Source: a virus
IMG/VR virus record: IMGVR_UViG_3300007735_000664
Coordinates: 1-35,583 of that record
Length of the DNA: 35,583 nt
Direction: 5' to 3' (one strand)
Positions 8,830 to 33,484 of this stretch are shown piece after piece. The position numbers and the translations under genes are program-made. How positions within the stretch are numbered: the stretch's first letter is position 1; the number at the start of each line of letters is the position of its first letter. The notes under the pieces were generated by a model. It did not search any database, was not told where the DNA came from, and was given only the letters and a program-made list of their open reading frames with translations.

Positions 8830-10422
8830 ATGCGAATACCTAGGTGGGTTATACCTTTGCCTGCAATTTTTCTTTCGTTTTTTTCTATTTCAGCGAAAGC
8901 CGAACCGATATCAGGGTTAAACGCAGTTGGTTACAGCATTTCTGCTATACCTCCAATTCGGTCTGATGACGAATATCCGACTTGTGGTAGCGAGTTAGAA
9001 AACAATATCAATCGCAATTTTAATGGAGAGCCGTTTCAGCAATGTGGCAATGATTTGTTTATGATTCATTACACGGGCTACATCACGATTCCTGAAAACG
9101 AAACAATCAAATTTATGATTGCAGGAGATGACGGTGCAACCGTAAAAATTGGTACAGAAGAATTTGGTACTTGGAATGACAAAGGGTGTTCTTGGTCGGC
9201 GCCAACCACAAGTAGTTTTCCTGCCGACTCGTATGCCTTAGACGGTTGGTTTTACGAACATGGTGGTGGCACTTGTTATATGTTGGCTTGGAACATCAAC
9301 AATGCAGGGTGGGAAATTGTTCCCGATGATGCGTTTACTACAACGGCGGTTATTCAGACGACTACTACGACTACTCCTTCAACCACCACAACGAGTACGA
9401 CAACAACAACAACAACACAACCACCAACATCAACGACCTCATCTACAACAACCCTTCCCATATCAACGACCACAACCACAGAGCCAACTCAGACAAGCAC
9501 AACCACATCAACTGTAGATACCACGACAACGACAACCACAACAACTTCAACGACTGTTCCCCAAACGACAACAACGACTGAAGCCCCTTATACACCGCCT
9601 CAAACAACGACAACTACTCCCACCAACTATTCTGAACCCGTAACAACCACAGTTGCACCCGATACTTCAGAACCCGAAGACGAATCCAAAGACGAGACGG
9701 CATCTTCTACAACCTATCCTGACGATTCTCTTGAAGAACCTGTTGAGTCAACCAATCCTGAGACAACCGTTCCCGAGAACGAGGATGCGACTCTTCCCGA
9801 CGAATCAGAACAGCCAACAAACACAACAGAGCCACAGGAAAATACAACAGATACAACAATGTTAGAAGAAAAGGCTTCATCGGAAGAGACAATAACAGAG
9901 TCTTCGGAGGAAAGCGTGGATAGCACAATTCCCGAAAGTGAGCCGATTTTGACTGATGAAGAGGTTGCTGAAGTGATTGAAGAGGTGAAGGTTTTAAGTG
10001 TTATTAACGATGAACTTTTTGAAGAAATTTTGGATGTTTTGGATTCGGTGACCGCCGACCAAGTGGTTCTTGTTGTTGAGGCTTTGCTGAAGGCTGATTT
10101 AAGTGAAGAACAAGTGGTGAGTCTCGCTTCTAGTTCAGAGGTATTAGAGAATGTGAATGTTGAGCAAGCCGAACAAATCTTTGAAAGCCTCAACGAAGAT
10201 GCGTTGACTTTGGAGCAAGGGGCGGAAATTGTGGAAGCGGTGCAGTCGGCTCCTGAGGCAATTCGTCAAACTTTTGAGGAAAAAATTGATGTGTTTTCGG
10301 GTGTTTTTGATTCCTATGTGCCTGTTGGTTCTTTGATTCCTGTGAGCGCCCGTCGGACTCTTGTTGTCGTTGGTGCTGTTCTTTCTATGCTTCCTGCACC
10401 TAACCTCCCTAAATTCAGATAA
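8830..10422 (+). CDS. Secreted PA14-like, Thr-rich surface protein
   Basis: A 530-residue protein with a signal peptide: basic start MRIPRW, hydrophobic core VIPLPAIFLSFFSI and a likely cleavage after SAKA. Residues of about 30-170 look like a PA14 carbohydrate-binding domain (MIHYTGYITIPENETIKFMI, then AGDDGATVKI) with several Cys. Residues of about 175-285 are a Thr/Pro/Ser linker suited to glycosylation, followed by an acidic Ser/Thr/Glu region. A helical domain (around SSEVLENVNVEQAEQIFESL) and a hydrophobic, Arg-flanked C-terminus (TLVVVGAVLSMLPAP) finish it. From memory, the C-terminal half resembles secreted proteins of freshwater Acidimicrobiia. It may be a host-derived cell-surface protein made during infection, or a virion adhesin; it lies just before the lysis genes. 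Confidence 0.6.
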   Translation: MRIPRWVIPLPAIFLSFFSISAKAEPISGLNAVGYSISAIPPIRSDDEYPTCGSELENNINRNFNGEPFQQCGNDLFMIHYTGYITIPENETIKFMIAGDDGATVKIGTEEFGTWNDKGCSWSAPTTSSFPADSYALDGWFYEHGGGTCYMLAWNINNAGWEIVPDDAFTTTAVIQTTTTTTPSTTTTSTTTTTTTQPPTSTTSSTTTLPISTTTTTEPTQTSTTTSTVDTTTTTTTTTSTTVPQTTTTTEAPYTPPQTTTTTPTNYSEPVTTTVAPDTSEPEDESKDETASSTTYPDDSLEEPVESTNPETTVPENEDATLPDESEQPTNTTEPQENTTDTTMLEEKASSEETITESSEESVDSTIPESEPILTDEEVAEVIEEVKVLSVINDELFEEILDVLDSVTADQVVLVVEALLKADLSEEQVVSLASSSEVLENVNVEQAEQIFESLNEDALTLEQGAEIVEAVQSAPEAIRQTFEEKIDVFSGVFDSYVPVGSLIPVSARRTLVVVGAVLSMLPAPNLPKFR

Positions 10423-13425: not shown

Positions 13426-13608
13426 ATGACGGATTGTTTGCATTGTTTAGGGACAAAACAAATACTTGTACCGACTCGGGATGGCACCGATTTCGCCTTA
13501 TGTCCGAACTGTTTTAAGAATTTACCGAGAGGAAGGCACCCGTCAATAACCGTGCAACACCCCTCGGGCAAGATGATAATTAAACAAACCAAAGGAGAAA
13601 AAGGATGA
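13426..13608 (+). CDS. Small zinc-ribbon protein
   Basis: A 60-residue protein starting at ATG 13426 behind AAAGGAACC. Two cysteine pairs (Cys4/Cys7 and Cys26/Cys29: DCLHC and LCPNC) form a likely zinc ribbon; the basic C-terminus (KMIIKQTKGEKG) could contact nucleic acid. It is first in the operon and overlaps the YqaJ start by four bases (ATGA), suggesting coupled synthesis. No specific function is recognised. Confidence 0.65.
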   Translation: MTDCLHCLGTKQILVPTRDGTDFALCPNCFKNLPRGRHPSITVQHPSGKMIIKQTKGEKG

Positions 13609-15399: not shown

Positions 15400-16137
15400 G
15401 TGTCTATTGAGGCGATAAATTGGGCGCTGAACCATGCACCATGCGAAAACAGTACGCAAAAGTTGGTGCTTTTTGCGCTCGCCAACCATGCTCATCCTGA
15501 CGGAACTTCGGCTTTCCCTTCGGTAGCGAGAATTATGCGGTACACACTTCTTTCGGAGCGGGCAATTCGTTTGCATCTTGCAGGTTTAGAAGAATTAGGT
15601 TTGATTGAGCGTGGCGATGCGTTTGTCGTCGCTTCATATATCAATCGTCCTGACCGTCGCCCGCAGAGTTGGAATCTTCGTTTGGACAAGGTTAGCGAGG
15701 TGCAACCTGTGCAGGTCGTGAATGAACGGGGTGCATCTAGTGCAGGTAACGGGGTGCATTTGGTGCATGAACGGGGTGCAGGAGATGCACCCAAACCATA
15801 CATAGAACCATCAATAGAACCATCAAGTGTTTTCATGTCTGAAGCGGTGAATCTTTGTAATCTTTTGGCGCATCTGATTCACGAGAACGGTAGCCGTTTA
15901 CCGAAGGTAACAAACAAGTGGATTCAGGACATGGAGAAAATTATGAGGCTTGACGGTAGGACACCTCAGCAGGTTGAGATGGCGATTCGTTGGTGTCAAA
16001 AAAATTCTTTTTGGAAGGCAAACATTTTGTCACCTTCAAAGTTGCGGGACAAGTATGACCAATTAAGGTTGCAGGCTTCTCGTGAAATGACAAGTCATCC
16101 TTTGAGTGGATTGTCGGATTTTTTGGCTGAGTCGTGA
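15400..16137 (+). CDS. Winged-helix replication initiator-like protein
   Basis: A 245-residue protein starting at GTG 15400 behind AAGGAG. Residues 1-95 form a helix-turn-helix domain like phage and plasmid initiators (STQKLVLFALANHAHPDGTS, FPSVARIMRYT, RAIRLHLAGLEELGLIER). Residues 100-143 are a low-complexity linker. Residues 145-240 form a second helical domain (KWIQDMEKIMRLDGRTPQQV, WCQKNSFWKANILSPSKLRD) typical of replisome organisers that recruit the helicase loader. The linker DNA carries ordered repeats that could be the origin, as in lambda O. A loader-like gene follows at 16722. The overall plan is well supported; the origin is inferred. Confidence 0.75.
   Translation: MSIEAINWALNHAPCENSTQKLVLFALANHAHPDGTSAFPSVARIMRYTLLSERAIRLHLAGLEELGLIERGDAFVVASYINRPDRRPQSWNLRLDKVSEVQPVQVVNERGASSAGNGVHLVHERGAGDAPKPYIEPSIEPSSVFMSEAVNLCNLLAHLIHENGSRLPKVTNKWIQDMEKIMRLDGRTPQQVEMAIRWCQKNSFWKANILSPSKLRDKYDQLRLQASREMTSHPLSGLSDFLAES
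15700..15825 (+). repeat. Iteron-like array within the initiator gene (candidate origin)
   Basis: ACGGGGTGCA occurs at 15726, 15749 and 15771 (23 and 22 bases apart, two helix turns). GTGCA also occurs in pairs nine bases apart at 15700/15709, 15731/15740 and 15754/15763, and again at 15776. GGGTGCA (15774-15780) and TGCACCC (15786-15792) form a perfect inverted repeat. Two tandem copies of ATAGAACCATCA follow (15802-15813, 15814-15825). The second decamer is in a different reading phase from the other two, so it is conserved as DNA, not as peptide. Confidence 0.65.
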
Positions 16138-16721: not shown

Positions 16722-17225
16722 GTGGAGAAAAGGGAAACTGCGGAGGTGTTGGCGATGTTGGCGTCGGCATACCCCCATATAAAAATTACGAAAGAAACAG
16801 CCGAGATTTACCATGATGTCCTACAAGATTTAGACATTGGGCAATGCGTTCAGGCGTCACGAAGTATCGTCAGGTTCTCACAGTTTTTCCCGTCAGCGTC
16901 GGAGATTCGTCGTGCTGTTTTGAAGGAAATGAATTTGTTGTCGCCGTTGCCGATTGAAGCATGGGGTGAAGTTATCGCCGTTGCAACAGGTGAGGGATTG
17001 AGGAAGACCCACGAGTGGTCACATAAAACTATTGAAGAAGTCGTGCAAGCAATCGGTTGGAGGGAGATTTGTGTTGCAGAAAATCAAGGTGTGTTGAGGG
17101 CGCATTTTCTTAAACTTTATGAGAGTCTTGCTACGAAGAACGACCAAGAAATTTTGGTCGGGTCATCAGTTAAAGAATTGGGGTTTGGTGTGAGGAAAGC
17201 ATTAGGGCGGGCAGGAGCCGAGTGA
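16722..17225 (+). CDS. Helicase-loader-like replication protein
   Basis: A 167-residue mostly helical protein from GTG 16722. The N-terminal part (TAEVLAMLASAYPHIKIT, ETAEIYHDVLQDLD, then SQFFPSASEIRRAV) matches the phage replisome-loader type seen in actinophages and in the G39P-like group, where it delivers replicative helicase to the initiator. The C-terminal part has the pattern VVQAIGWREICVAEN and HFLKLYESL. No ATPase motif is present, so it is not a DnaC-type loader. It follows the initiator gene in the same operon. No phage helicase is seen here, so the partner would be the host DnaB. Confidence 0.6.
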   Translation: MEKRETAEVLAMLASAYPHIKITKETAEIYHDVLQDLDIGQCVQASRSIVRFSQFFPSASEIRRAVLKEMNLLSPLPIEAWGEVIAVATGEGLRKTHEWSHKTIEEVVQAIGWREICVAENQGVLRAHFLKLYESLATKNDQEILVGSSVKELGFGVRKALGRAGAE

Positions 17226-17575: not shown

Positions 17576-17977
17576 ATGGAATTAGGTCGTTCAAGTTATC
17601 AGTTCACTTTGGTGGAAAGACCTTGGACGGTTAACGCTGAGCGAGCGGGTAATCGTTGGGAGCGGGCTAAGAAAACAAAACATTGGCGAGAACAGTTTTG
17701 TTTGTTATGTCGGAGTCAGGCACCGTCAACCTTGACTGATGCTGTCGTTGAGGTACGGCTTACTTTGAAGGGTCGGCTTCAAGATACTTCTGCCTGTATG
17801 CCTGCCGTCAAAGCGGCGATTGACGGGCTTGTGGATGGCGGTCTTTTCGTGGATGATACGGGTGACCATGTGAAATGTATTGTGTTTTGGGCGCCCGTGA
17901 AGGCAAAGGTTGATGCGTTGACAATTTTCGTTGAGGGGATAGAGATGGATAGAGCGGGCTATACTCAACCCAAGTAA
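17576..17977 (+). CDS. RusA-like Holliday junction resolvase
   Basis: A 133-residue protein resembling RusA endonucleases, which cut four-way DNA junctions as dimers. The typical pattern is present: Asp70 in RLQDTSACMP (replacing the more usual DxDN), Asp83 in AAIDGLVDGGLF, and VDD (92-94) before a final beta-rich region. It would resolve recombination intermediates from the exonuclease/annealing system before packaging. ATG 17576 has GGAT close upstream and starts nine bases after the HNH stop. The second acidic position deviates from the family norm, so activity is likely but not certain. Confidence 0.72.
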   Translation: MELGRSSYQFTLVERPWTVNAERAGNRWERAKKTKHWREQFCLLCRSQAPSTLTDAVVEVRLTLKGRLQDTSACMPAVKAAIDGLVDGGLFVDDTGDHVKCIVFWAPVKAKVDALTIFVEGIEMDRAGYTQPK

Positions 17978-19576: not shown

Positions 19577-20695
19577 ATGCCACAAACAACAAATCAAACA
19601 CTTCAGCGTGACCGTGATGCGTGGGAACTTCGTCATTCAGAACATCAAACTTGGGCGACTATCGCTCAAGCACTTGGCTTCACTCAAGAGTCTGTAGCCC
19701 GAGCGGCGGCACGACGCCACGCTAGACGCCTCGGCATGGTTCCGCAGGTAAACCCGAACCGTTCAAACGCAGGACGCCGAGCGGCAAATTTACGATTCGG
19801 TCAAGCAACTCCATTACCGAATGTCAACGCTCCGCTTGGTCAATTTCTTCCAATCAATCAACGAACATTCGGTGTTGAGATTGAGTTCAAAACTGTGGCA
19901 AAACATTTTGCCGCCGCAAAAGTTGCTGAGGCTTTAGGTGTCAATCACATTCACTCTTTCGCCTATCACAACAATCGTTGCGAAGTTTGCCATCAGTTAG
20001 TTCCGACTCACGAGATTTACACTCAATGGAAGGTTGAGCGTGACGGCTCGGTAACTACGGTGATGGGTGGTTGTGAATACGGCGGTGAACTCGTTTCGCC
20101 AATTCTCACCATAGATGGTGACGGACTTCAACAAATCAAAACTGTCACTCAAGCATTAAAACAAGCAGGAGCGACTGTTGACCGACGATGTGGTTTGCAC
20201 ATTCACATTTCTGTCAAAGATTTTGACAACCAACAGAGGGCGAACATCGTAGATTTGTGGGCGCTTCAAGAGCGAGTGATTGAACGCTTCGTTGCCAAAA
20301 GCAGAATCAACAATCAATATTGCGCTCGTATGAATCCTCGTAGGGTGGATGATTTGGTTGACGCCCTAAAGCGAGGCAGAAGCGTGTCGGGCATGATAGG
20401 CAAGATGCAATCCCTCAATATTCTTCCCTACGAAACACCGAAGAAAACCTTTGAGGTCAGGTTGCACCAAGGTACGCTCTCGGGCAAAAAGATAAACACT
20501 TGGGTCAAACTGCTGTTAGCGTTCTTTCAAAACTCGGCGCTGAATGACCGTTTACAAACAGACTTCCCGATGCCCGACCCGAACGATATCAATGTACGAC
20601 CTTTGCTCGGGGTGTTAGCAGGCAAAGGATTCATAAATCAACGAGATGCAGATTATTTAACCGAGAGAGCAGATGCTCTAGCAAGGAGAAACTAA
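19577..20695 (+). CDS. Amidoligase family enzyme with N-terminal HTH-like segment
   Basis: A 372-residue protein. Residues 10-55 look like a helix-turn-helix (TWATIAQALGFTQESVARAA). Residues 61-76 contain NRSNAGRRAANLRF, similar to a motif repeated near the terminase. From residue 97 the amidoligase (glutamine-synthetase-like fold) signature appears: FGVEIEF (98-104), RDGSV and CEYGGELVSPIL (155-177), RRCGLHIHI (203-211), then EVRLHQGTLSGKKINTWV. These enzymes use ATP to form amide or isopeptide bonds, with Glu/His residues binding Mg-ATP. The next gene, two bases downstream, is a class II glutamine amidotransferase that could supply ammonia. The substrate is unknown. Confidence 0.78.
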   Translation: MPQTTNQTLQRDRDAWELRHSEHQTWATIAQALGFTQESVARAAARRHARRLGMVPQVNPNRSNAGRRAANLRFGQATPLPNVNAPLGQFLPINQRTFGVEIEFKTVAKHFAAAKVAEALGVNHIHSFAYHNNRCEVCHQLVPTHEIYTQWKVERDGSVTTVMGGCEYGGELVSPILTIDGDGLQQIKTVTQALKQAGATVDRRCGLHIHISVKDFDNQQRANIVDLWALQERVIERFVAKSRINNQYCARMNPRRVDDLVDALKRGRSVSGMIGKMQSLNILPYETPKKTFEVRLHQGTLSGKKINTWVKLLLAFFQNSALNDRLQTDFPMPDPNDINVRPLLGVLAGKGFINQRDADYLTERADALARRN

Positions 20696-20697
20696 GT

Positions 20698-21516
20698 ATG
20701 TGTGGTATCGCAGGTTTTTCAATAAGCAACAAAGACCACCGCAAACTGAAGTCCCGTAATCTCGCTGAGAAACTTTTGTTAGAGATTGTGGCTCGTGGTG
20801 AGGACGCCACAGGAGCGGCATGGACAGAAGATGTCAACGGCAAAAGCGAAGTTTATTTCGCCAAAGAAGCATTGCCCGCCGAACTGTTCGTGGAGTACAC
20901 CTCGGAGATGATTCCACGATTTACGAGAACAGCAATTCTGCACACGAGGTATGCGACCAAAGGTACGCCAAACAATAACGACAACAATCACCCGATAGTG
21001 ATTCCAAACAAAATTGTCGGTGTCCACAATGGTGTCATTGCCAACGATGACGAGTTGTTTGAAACAAATAATTGGGACAGAATTGCTGAGGTTGACTCGG
21101 AGGCAATCTTCCAAATAATTGCCAACTGCAAAAAACCGTTACACAGACTTCTTGACTTGAAGGGCAGAGCGGCTATCGCTTGGCTTGATGTGGCTGACCC
21201 AAAAACTTTGCACTTGGCGAGGTTGGAAGGTTCACCTTTGTTCATTGGTCACACCTACGGTGACTCGCTCATCTTCGCTTCCACAGAGGCGCTCCTCAAA
21301 CAAGCGGCAAAAGAAGCCAAAGTTTCGTTGGCAACCGTTTGGGAAGTTCCCGAAATGATGTACCTTAAGGTGCAGGCAGGCAAAATCATTGAACGAAAAC
21401 CGCTCGGAGATAAACCGAAGCAGTTGCCGATTCGCCCGAAGCCTTTTGGTGGTAGGGAGTTGTTCCCTCTGTCGGGCTATCCCGTAAGACCTTACAGACA
21501 CTACAGCGAACGATAA
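20698..21516 (+). CDS. Class II glutamine amidotransferase
   Basis: A 272-residue Ntn-type amidotransferase beginning MCGIAGF, so Cys2 becomes the N-terminal nucleophile after Met removal. Further family marks are LHTRYATKGTPNNNDNNHP (glutamine-site Arg in LHTRYA, about residue 82) and VGVHNGVIANDDEL. It would hydrolyse glutamine and pass ammonia to a partner. It lacks the synthetase or isomerase domain found in PurF, GlmS or AsnB, so the partner is probably the amidoligase encoded two bases upstream. The C-terminal 40 residues are Pro/Arg-rich. Phage-encoded amidoligase/amidotransferase pairs are known from genomic surveys, but their products are unknown to me. Confidence 0.85.
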   Translation: MCGIAGFSISNKDHRKLKSRNLAEKLLLEIVARGEDATGAAWTEDVNGKSEVYFAKEALPAELFVEYTSEMIPRFTRTAILHTRYATKGTPNNNDNNHPIVIPNKIVGVHNGVIANDDELFETNNWDRIAEVDSEAIFQIIANCKKPLHRLLDLKGRAAIAWLDVADPKTLHLARLEGSPLFIGHTYGDSLIFASTEALLKQAAKEAKVSLATVWEVPEMMYLKVQAGKIIERKPLGDKPKQLPIRPKPFGGRELFPLSGYPVRPYRHYSER

Positions 21517-30670: not shown

Positions 30671-30981
30671 TGCGACGACCTGACCCAAATTTTTTGGCGG
30701 CGAAACCTGATTCTGCGGTTATCGGGAATCCCACAGTAGAAGAACTGAACTTTACTGATTGGTTGAACTACGGGATACAACACAACTATTGCGGAACCCT
30801 AGTCTGTTACAACCATGATGGTGTACCGATGACAGTAGAAGAAGAACAAGACGAAGAGCCATGCGTCCCAATTCTCAGAATTTATGACACAGTTGAACAG
30901 AAAACTGAGGTAGAAAACAACCATTCACCGTCAATATGGCGACAAACCAACCTCAAACACACCACAAAACACACCAACTAA
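30670..30981 (+). CDS. Hypothetical protein with low-complexity C-terminus
   Basis: A 103-residue protein from ATG 30670. The first 75 residues look globular (FTDWLNYGIQHNYCGTLVCY), then an acidic patch (EEEQDEEPC) and a C-terminus (HSPSIWRQTNLKHTTKHTN) read from a strand almost free of G and T. The gene may really end earlier in related phages; the C-terminal 20 residues are composition-driven. No family recognised. Confidence 0.5.
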   Translation: MRRPDPNFLAAKPDSAVIGNPTVEELNFTDWLNYGIQHNYCGTLVCYNHDGVPMTVEEEQDEEPCVPILRIYDTVEQKTEVENNHSPSIWRQTNLKHTTKHTN

Positions 30982-31296
30982 ACCCCACTCAACACACCAA
31001 AACAACACCAAACAACAAAACCAAACCCACCAAACACAACAAAACACCCAAAAACCACGCCTCCGCACACGATTCAAACGCTCGTTTTTTTTGGTGGTTT
31101 GTGTCAGTATGGGGTATGTCTAAATCTTCGGGTCGGCTGATTTGTCCTTGTGATGTTGGGGTTTTGCCGTGTCATCCTGTGTGTGACGGGAATGAGGATG
31201 ATGATGATGATTGACGAACAGGTGTTCACTCGCTGCTAGGTTTTTTGTCGTTTTTGTTGATGCGACGAAGTTTTTGTGCTAACTTCGGCTCTCATT
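30982..31296. other. Gap before the terminase genes with abrupt strand-composition change
   Basis: No convincing gene. Bases up to about 31078 are almost only A and C on the + strand. From about 31080 the strand becomes rich in G and T. A frame of 32 residues at 31116-31214 (MSKSSGRLICPCDVGVLPCH, ending in a run of Asp) has three to four Cys but a poor ribosome binding site. A possible promoter, TTGATG (31257-31262)-N17-TAACTT (31280-31285), precedes the small terminase. A packaging site here is possible because of its position. Confidence 0.4.
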
Positions 31297-31710: not shown

Positions 31711-33484
31711 TGAGGGATTAAGCGGGGAAGCGAAACTTTTATCTTTTTTGCGTGATGCGACGAGTGTTGAACGCAAAATTTGGTTGTCAAAGTTAAGTGT
31801 TGAGGAAAGGCAAACTGTTCACCAACTTTTGCGCCGTGTGGAAGAGAATCCTTGGACGCAATGGTTAACTGACCCTATCGGGTTCGTGGAACTCGGGTTG
31901 AAAGAAACGCTTTGGTCTAAACAGCGTGAAATTTTGATGTCGGTGAGGGATAACAAGAGAACTGCTGTACCTGCTTGTCACGCCCCAGGAAAAAGTCATT
32001 TGGCGGCGAGAATCGTTGCTTGGTGGGTGATGTGCCAACCAACAGGCACCGCTCAAGTGGTGACTACAGCAACATCTTTCAGACAAGTACGCAACATCTT
32101 GTGGTCACACATAAGAAAACTTCATGCGACACACAATCTGTCGGGTGACTGTCTCACAGTGGAATGGAAACAAAACAACAGCGTCGTCGCCTTCGGTTTC
32201 GCACCTGCACAATACAACGAGACAGCCCTACAAGGCATCCACGCACCCAATTTGCTTGTCGTGGTAGATGAGGCGGGAGGCATATCCCAAACAATCGGAA
32301 ACGCCCTAGAAGCCCTAATGACGGGCGGTAACACACGCCTACTACTCTTAGGCAACCCACCAACCGACCAAGAAAACTCATGGTTTGAACAAGCCTGCAA
32401 CAGCGACCTCTACAACACAATCAAAATCAGCGCACACGACACACCAAACTTCACCCACGAAGACACAGGAAACTGCACAACCTGCCCAAAATCGGTACCA
32501 ACACACAAAGTATCAACACATCTCGTAGATGAATCATGGGTAAAAGATGTAATCAAAGAACTAGGCAACGATTCACCCTTCGCACAAGCAAGAATCTACG
32601 CAAACTTCGTCAAAAACACCACAAACCGAGTAATACCCTCAACATGGATAGAAGAAGCCTCAAAAAACCTCTCACCCGCACACGACACACGAATCAGACT
32701 CGGAATAGACATCGCCTCAGACGGAGGAGACGAATTCGTAATAGCACGAGCCGACGGATACACCGTAACCATCGCCCACACCTCAAGCGGAGCCGAAAAC
32801 TCCAACGCCGTCCAAGTAGCCCAAGTCTGCCTACGACACATCCAACAAGCCGAACACGACCTAGCAACTTTACATAACAAAACCGAACACCCGTTCGCCC
32901 CCGAACACCCGTTCGCCGCCGCCGACCCACAAAACCCATATAACATAAGGGTTTCCGACCCCACCAAACCCTTATGGGATAAGGGTTTCCGAGGGGGTGG
33001 GGGGGCTTTCACCCGACTTTCCGAGGGGGGCTTCACCGATACCGTGTCTGTGAAAATTGATGCGATTGGTGTGGGTTGGGGGGTGGTTAGTTTGTTGGAG
33101 TCGTGGGGTCGTGAGGGTTTGCATTCGGCTCGGATTGTTGGTGTGAATGTTGCTGAGCGGGCTGTTGATGTTGGTCGGTTTAGGAATCAGAGGGCTGAGA
33201 TGTGGTGGAATGGTCGGGTTTTGTTGGAACCTGATGTGGATGGTTTTCAGGTGGTGAGGTTGGATGTTGACCGTAGGTGTTTGGGTCAGTTGGGTGTTGC
33301 GGAGTTTGTTTCGGATTCTTCGGGTCGTGTGAAGGTTGTGTCTAAGGGTGAGTTGCGGGTTCGTGGTGTTGGTTCTCCTGATAGGGCTGAGGCGGTTTTG
33401 TTGGCGTTGTATGAGCCTTCTCCTTGGGTTGTTCCTGTTGTTGCTCCTGTGGGGTTGGGTCAGGTTAATCCTTGGCGGGTGTGA
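31697..33484 (+). CDS. Terminase large subunit with repeat-bearing insertion
   Basis: About 595 residues from TTG 31697 (GAGGA five bases upstream; TTG 31685 also possible). The ATPase part shows Walker A ACHAPGKSH (about residue 95) and Walker B NLLVVVDEAGG (about 185). The nuclease part shows acidic sites GIDIASDGGDEFV, VKIDAIGVGWG and SPDRAEAVLLAL. Between the first and second nuclease acidic sites lies an extra segment of about 50 residues with two EHPFA repeats, encoded by DNA full of direct and inverted repeats (32883-33029). Base composition flips from C/A-rich to G/T-rich there. TerL cuts and pumps DNA into the head. All key residues seem present, so it should be functional. Confidence 0.9.
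   Translation: MLKNDEGLSGEAKLLSFLRDATSVERKIWLSKLSVEERQTVHQLLRRVEENPWTQWLTDPIGFVELGLKETLWSKQREILMSVRDNKRTAVPACHAPGKSHLAARIVAWWVMCQPTGTAQVVTTATSFRQVRNILWSHIRKLHATHNLSGDCLTVEWKQNNSVVAFGFAPAQYNETALQGIHAPNLLVVVDEAGGISQTIGNALEALMTGGNTRLLLLGNPPTDQENSWFEQACNSDLYNTIKISAHDTPNFTHEDTGNCTTCPKSVPTHKVSTHLVDESWVKDVIKELGNDSPFAQARIYANFVKNTTNRVIPSTWIEEASKNLSPAHDTRIRLGIDIASDGGDEFVIARADGYTVTIAHTSSGAENSNAVQVAQVCLRHIQQAEHDLATLHNKTEHPFAPEHPFAAADPQNPYNIRVSDPTKPLWDKGFRGGGGAFTRLSEGGFTDTVSVKIDAIGVGWGVVSLLESWGREGLHSARIVGVNVAERAVDVGRFRNQRAEMWWNGRVLLEPDVDGFQVVRLDVDRRCLGQLGVAEFVSDSSGRVKVVSKGELRVRGVGSPDRAEAVLLALYEPSPWVVPVVAPVGLGQVNPWRV
32883..33029 (+). repeat. Direct and inverted repeats inside the terminase gene
   Basis: CCGAACACCCGTTCGCC occurs twice (32883-32899, 32901-32917; period 18). 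ATAAGGGTTTCCGA occurs twice (32945-32958, 32979-32992). AAACCCTTAT (32966-32975) and ATAAGGGTTT (32979-32988) make a perfect 10-bp inverted repeat around GGG. TTTCCGAGGGGG occurs at 32986-32997 and 33018-33029. The repeats lie in the insertion between nuclease motifs. Confidence 0.8.

Follow-up and report, generated by a model that had tools for sequence, protein, structure and literature searches.

Where an uncultured virus starts copying its DNA is rarely known, and the question is raised here by a cluster of repeats located inside a gene of an uncultured phage. The window, i.e. the whole stretch of DNA that was analysed, comprises the 35,583 bp of a virus record in IMG/VR. This phage very probably starts DNA copying from the array inside its own initiator gene, and the putative origin is readable from that gene because its DNA is more repetitive than the peptide alone would call for. 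A preliminary description of the sequence had proposed an iteron-like origin at 15700-15825; the array and the A+T-rich tract that follows it really extend over about 15694-15828, and the interpretation of the array as a candidate iteron origin is supported by the comparisons presented here (Table 1).

The product of the gene has the layout of a replication initiator, with an N-terminal DNA-binding domain, a flexible middle and a C-domain of lambda O type that is predicted to recruit the helicase. It matches the winged-helix domain PF13730 (HTH_36, E 4e-11) in a Pfam scan and the 'replication initiation O-like' families of PHROG (E 3e-29). The Rep_3 domain (PF01051) was not found in the Pfam scan, which sets the protein apart from iteron plasmid initiators of the Rep_3 type, and a match of the N-domain to RP-C is weak and below the cut-off (E 0.006). 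An AlphaFold2 model built from 31 sequences comprises a winged helix, a disordered linker and a helical C-domain. Both domains are modelled with confidence, and in the N-domain the helices 18-29, 42-49 and 53-66 and the strands 69-71 and 91-93 follow the winged-helix order. The C-domain matches lambda O directly (tblastn 36%, E 5e-5, against J02459.1 39343-39510; pairwise alignment 36% over 56 aa), in agreement with the gene O-like placement of the origin suggested in the preliminary description. A PDB sequence search with the family profile gave no useful match, and a Foldseek search gave no E below 0.001; the structures retrieved are mostly generic winged helices, with a DnaD model and the initiator-domain entries 4pql and 4pt7 among the top 50.

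Table 1. Positions of the initiator gene, the elements of the repeat array and the candidate loader gene in the window
Feature	Position	Strand	Description
Replication initiator gene	15400..16137	+	245 aa, GTG start; PF13730 HTH_36, O-like PHROG
Predicted recognition helix, aa 53-66	15556..15597	+	AlphaFold2 helix, pLDDT about 95; starts at E of SERAIRLHLAGLEE
Site 1, AGCGAGGTGCA	15694..15704	+	RNCGRGGTGCA match; same-place site in relatives L060-L070
Disordered linker, codons 105-138	15712..15813	+	Contains the larger part of the array; pLDDT below 50 (aa 105-138)
Site 2, AACGGGGTGCA	15725..15735	+	RNCGRGGTGCA match
Site 3, AACGGGGTGCA	15748..15758	+	RNCGRGGTGCA match, other reading phase
Site 4, AACGGGGTGCA	15770..15780	+	RNCGRGGTGCA match; left arm of terminal dyad
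Terminal 19-bp dyad, GGGTGCA-GGAGA-TGCACCC	15774..15792	.	Left arm 15774-15780, right arm 15786-15792
A+T-rich tract, 12-bp tandem repeat AACCATCAATAG	15793..15828	+	Candidate DNA unwinding element; stability, TRF
C-terminal domain, aa 174-229	15919..16086	+	Homologous to lambda O C-terminal region; tblastn and pairwise alignment
Candidate helicase loader (G39P-like)	16722..17225	+	phrog_2289 E 2e-9; PF11417 E 0.002, below curated cut-off

According to Pfam and PHROG, a RecE-like exonuclease gene (at 13605) and a RusA-like resolvase gene (at 17576) are located near the initiator gene. A G39P-like loader is weakly suggested for 16722-17225, and a P-type loader gene was not identified in the window. 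Other features of this genome deserve mention in their own right. At 19577-21516, an amidoligase (PF12224) gene adjoins a class II glutamine amidotransferase gene, an unusual phage cargo whose two products could act as a pair. A secreted-looking protein of 530 aa with a long threonine-rich linker and without a PHROG match is encoded at 8830-10422. About 100 nt at 30955-31052 consist almost entirely of A and C, in roughly 4.5 copies of a 22-23 nt unit, and are followed by a T-rich stretch; both lie upstream of the terminase large subunit gene, and the A/C stretch is possibly a packaging signal or a structured leader. Repeats in tandem, of 18 and 33-34 nt, are present at 32883-32992 within the ORF of the terminase large subunit, where GC and AT skew swing sharply.

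The array can be described by an 11-mer, RNCGRGGTGCA, which occurs exactly four times when both strands of the window are searched, each time in the array and on the + strand. The expected number for the window is 0.30, and none of 100 shuffles reaches four. The four direct sites follow one another at steps of 31, 23 and 22. Three of them had been described earlier as ACGGGGTGCA decamers at 15726, 15749 and 15771 with steps of 23 and 22; these stand, including the different reading phase of the middle one, and the site at 15694 had been missed. Pairs of GTGCA nine bases apart had also been reported and are present (15700/15709, 15731/15740, 15754/15763), but relatives do not retain them. Each of sites 1-3 is a single half-site without a conserved inverted half, and only the last site forms a 19-bp dyad, the arms of which are the perfect inverted repeat already recognized in the preliminary description. 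In the window, the distance from the last direct site to the inverted half is exactly +12, and the same value holds for most of the relatives examined, other families included.

Immediately 3′ of the terminal dyad comes AAACCATACATAGAACCATCAATAGAACCATCA, and it is there that the 40-bp stretches of lowest stability in the gene have their starts (15793-15799). The 12-bp tandem repeat noted earlier was recovered by TRF at 15794-15826. It is best read as the A+T-rich tract, with the least stable 40 bp of the gene, and not as a protein-binding array. Several iterons about two helical turns apart in mid-gene (four sites), with an easily melted A+T-rich tract directly downstream, correspond to the arrangement of lambda-type origins. 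Array and tract mostly coincide with the disordered linker; being disordered, this peptide would tolerate the array, which could therefore be maintained as DNA whatever the reading phase. As the 11-mer forms no second cluster on either strand of the window, a second origin elsewhere in it, of the kind found in SPP1, was rejected. A single-strand hairpin as the main feature of the array was also rejected, since its folding is only weakly better than that of shuffles (z -1.8). GC skew does not change sign at the array and is uninformative as an origin marker.

It had been argued from the reading phases that DNA sequence is maintained here rather than peptide, and several independent comparisons point the same way. 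In a recoding test, the same protein was encoded 20,000 times with synonymous codons drawn from the phage's own codon usage. The three decamers recur in 0/20,000 recodings, and identical 8-mer pairs number 23, against a mean of about 1 in the recodings. Applied to the N- and C-terminal parts of the gene, the test gives a flat result. Lambda O, used as a positive control, behaves in the same way, its linker giving 0/5000 and its other segments being flat. Chance repeats are rejected by these recodings together with the shuffles. Synonymous sites are frozen in comparison with relatives L001 and L002, whose proteins are 84-85% identical to that of the window: codons of conserved residues are identical to those of L001 at 34/35 positions in 15694-15825 versus 93/164 elsewhere (Fisher p 6e-7), and 15766-15825 shows no synonymous change (19/19 codons identical).

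The same property extends to more distant relatives. A set assembled protein-first comprises 67 non-redundant N-domain relatives, with 132 segments from other ORFs of the same loci as controls. At a significance of p below 0.005, DNA repeats beyond those explained by the peptide are found in 50/67 linkers versus 4/132 control segments. The persistence of repeat number and spacing, one of the checks proposed in the preliminary description, is observed in close and intermediate relatives, and no close relative with the same domain was seen to lack the repeats. Relatives L060-L070 (58-64% protein identity) have 5-6 sites, one or two more than the window, at steps of about 31-23-21-22 or similar, and keep the inverted half at +12. 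Across the family of the window, actinobacterial elements and a Gordonia phage, the steps are near 30-34, 22 and 22, and with steps of 22 bp one and the same word passes through all three reading phases. In many of the 67 relatives the word itself differs, being for example GGGGCGTCA in L035 and L040, GGGGGGCA in L231 and L243, GGGGTGACA in L053 and AGTACGNAA in L006 and L027. A weak A+T-rich tract follows the array in nearly all families checked. Two further observations concern single groups. In the related initiator of the Streptomyces plasmid pCQ4 (L059), words of the ACGGGGG type recur every 22 bp along the linker and occupy three reading phases. Marine virus relatives (L003-L030) have dyad-like iterons, AGTACGNAA..TACT or ATTGGGCC, at steps of about 24 bp, and a conserved CTAACCACCATAGAACCATCAATTAACCACC-like tract comes next.

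A search in the opposite direction started from the DNA. IMG/VR was scanned for CGGGGTGCA-N5-TGCACCC, which gave at least 120 stretches. Among the matches listed, the dyad lies in an ORF with the initiator N-domain in 109/120, a figure that is not a count of independent events, many of the contigs being near-copies; the C-domains of these ORFs vary. Eight of the remaining 11 listed matches are at contig ends. A scrambled control pattern gave 19 stretches, 2/19 in such initiator ORFs. The control matches L216:4504-4524 and L217:2761-2781 lie in HTH initiator ORFs and seem to belong to another iteron array (TGGCAAA/TTTGCCA). For two rarer iteron types, the corresponding patterns fall in such ORFs in 8/23 and 1/27 cases, with total matches close to the scrambled control; a 16-base dyad alone is thus not diagnostic for every iteron type.

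The iteron sequence is linked to the N-terminal domain, and the co-variation predicted in the preliminary description is observed: among relatives, the repeat sequence changes along with this domain. In natural domain swaps, the iterons go with the N-domain. Between L003 and L023, identity is 94% in the C-domain but falls to 63% in the N-domain and 12% in the linker; between L017 and L023, it is 86% in the N-domain, 80% in the linker and 67% in the C-domain. At a finer scale, a T-to-G change in the iteron accompanies changes in the recognition helix. Iterons of the GGGGTGCA or GGGGGGCA type are present in 47 non-redundant rows. In these, columns 59 and 61, both in the predicted recognition helix, are the most informative on iteron type of all N-domain columns, and no residue pair of the N-domain other than R57 with R61 separates the GGGGTGCA from the GGGGGGCA types. 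The rule is perfect in these rows but was chosen after looking, and for three of the eight GGGGGGCA rows the type was assigned by eye. When the helix columns are left out of the tree, four changes are counted for each trait, and the two agree in direction in every independent pair; this amounts to only 3-4 independent events (sign test p 0.25). Given the few independent changes, the partial typing by eye and the post hoc rule, a code between helix and iteron is to be taken as a lead.

Altogether, it is highly likely that 15694-15828 is an origin of theta replication embedded in the initiator gene and used through steps of binding, opening and loading. These steps, and the use of the array as an origin, are proposed by analogy with lambda (PMC7466680) and SPP1 (PMC6316719), where binding of the array by the initiator, opening of the tract and helicase loading are established. 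The winged-helix N-domain would bind the GGGGTGCA iterons, which, with steps of 2-3 turns, would be stacked along much the same face of the helix, and the terminal 19-bp dyad would be bound as a pair. The assembled complex would then strain and open the adjoining A+T-rich tract, and the lambda-O-like C-domain would recruit the replicative helicase via a loader, probably the G39P-like product of 16722-17225.

Other roles of the array have to be weighed against this origin. The main rival is that the initiator does bind the array, but chiefly to restrain expression or copy number, the array being an operator or titration site and the origin lying elsewhere. Repression is a common role of winged-helix proteins with this fold, and MarR/Fur-type regulators make up most of the best Foldseek matches (E above 0.1). 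In iteron plasmids, initiators can be regulators as well. Against this, the array lies 300 bp inside the gene, there is no second cluster in the window, and internal arrays serve as origins in lambda, SPP1, pSK41 and pPR9 (PMC7466680, PMC6316719, PMC5703833). The role is improbable, as it leaves unexplained the weak tract present in nearly all families checked, the conserved spacing and terminal dyad, and the position of the array. It is still less probable that the array is a site for a different DNA-binding protein of host or phage, or for partition, packaging or recombination. Clustered repeats can also be found at par and pac sites, and nothing more specific speaks for such a site; against it, the iteron type tracks the N-domain of the same gene in the swaps and in the co-change with the helix, and the GGGGTGCA dyad lies almost only in such initiator genes among the DNA-first matches listed. 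Least credible of all is a repetitive linker (ERGA/GVH and EPS motifs) selected as peptide, its DNA having no role, since, although the linker words RGA, NGV and EPS are common to relatives, one DNA word persists in two or three phases of reading and thus encodes different peptides, recoding of the same peptide loses the repeats, synonymous sites are frozen and the linker is predicted to be disordered.

Beyond this phage, the origin layout recurs in many unrelated phages and looks general and readable from sequence. It is somewhat probable, as a joint proposition, that HTH_36 initiators make up a very large family of modules in which reader and origin are portable together, spread over phages and plasmids of Actinobacteria and Pseudomonadota and over marine viruses, with a shared spacing grammar (steps of about 31-22-22, a terminal 19-bp dyad, a weak tract, three phases) and a partly readable code in which helices with R57..R61 go with GGGGGGCA-type sites and other residue pairs with GGGGTGCA. 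If true, origins and origin specificity of uncultured viruses would be predictable from sequence alone. The natural swaps and the helix/iteron co-change lend themselves to concrete and cheap tests of origin specificity, and could help to obtain compatible minimal replicons for hosts that are poorly tractable. In the literature searched, no paper was found that describes the array or its spacing grammar; the generality of the arrangement in PF13730 initiators, the independence of the grammar from reading phase and the helix/iteron co-change apparently have not been described there either.

An origin embedded in an initiator gene is itself of a known kind, with precedents in lambda O, SPP1 gene 38, pSK41 rep, repC and pPR9. 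In lambda, ori-lambda is located in the middle of initiator gene O (PMC7466680). Its four iterons, at steps of 20, 24 and 23 (J02459.1), are about two turns apart and precede an A+T-rich region as in the window; the C-domains are homologous, and in both cases extra iterons lengthen the protein. The two systems differ in the N-domain, which is PF04492 (Phage_rep_O) in lambda O and PF13730 here, in the iterons, each of which is a 19-bp imperfect dyad in lambda whereas only the last site is a dyad in the window, and in the loader, which is of P-type in lambda, none of this type having been identified in the window. In SPP1, oriL lies inside gene 38 and consists of direct repeats and an A+T-rich tract (PMC6316719), again within the initiator gene. 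SPP1 has a gp39-type helicase loader, for which the window offers the weak candidate of Table 1, and a second origin, oriR, about 13 kb away (PMC6316719), whereas the window has a single cluster. For the N-domain, the comparison is with L057, the replisome organizer from another Bacillus phage, which has an N-terminal PF09681 in place of PF13730. In repABC plasmids, oriV is found within the repC coding sequence beside a large A+T-rich region, and of the features looked for in repC, namely iterons, DnaA boxes and an A+T-rich region, the last alone was detected (PMC3155836). The likeness to the window is the location within the initiator coding sequence beside A+T-rich DNA, together with the weak RP-C match; the window has four sites where those authors detected no iterons.

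In the case of pSK41, the N-domain binds four boxes central in rep, and the protein middle encoded by the origin is a dispensable linker (PMC5703833). In pPR9, a PF13730 domain and its origin stand in place of the corresponding portion of a pSK41-type rep gene, and the pPR9 mini-replicon replicates and is compatible with pSK41 (PMC5703833). These are Firmicutes plasmids with a C-domain unlike that of the window, and the likeness is one of layout. With a PF13730 N-domain in a replication initiator, and with an origin exchanged together with that domain, pPR9 can be regarded as the closest experimental precedent for an HTH_36 domain-plus-origin unit, with which the natural swaps and the array in the family of the window are consistent, as judged from sequence alone.
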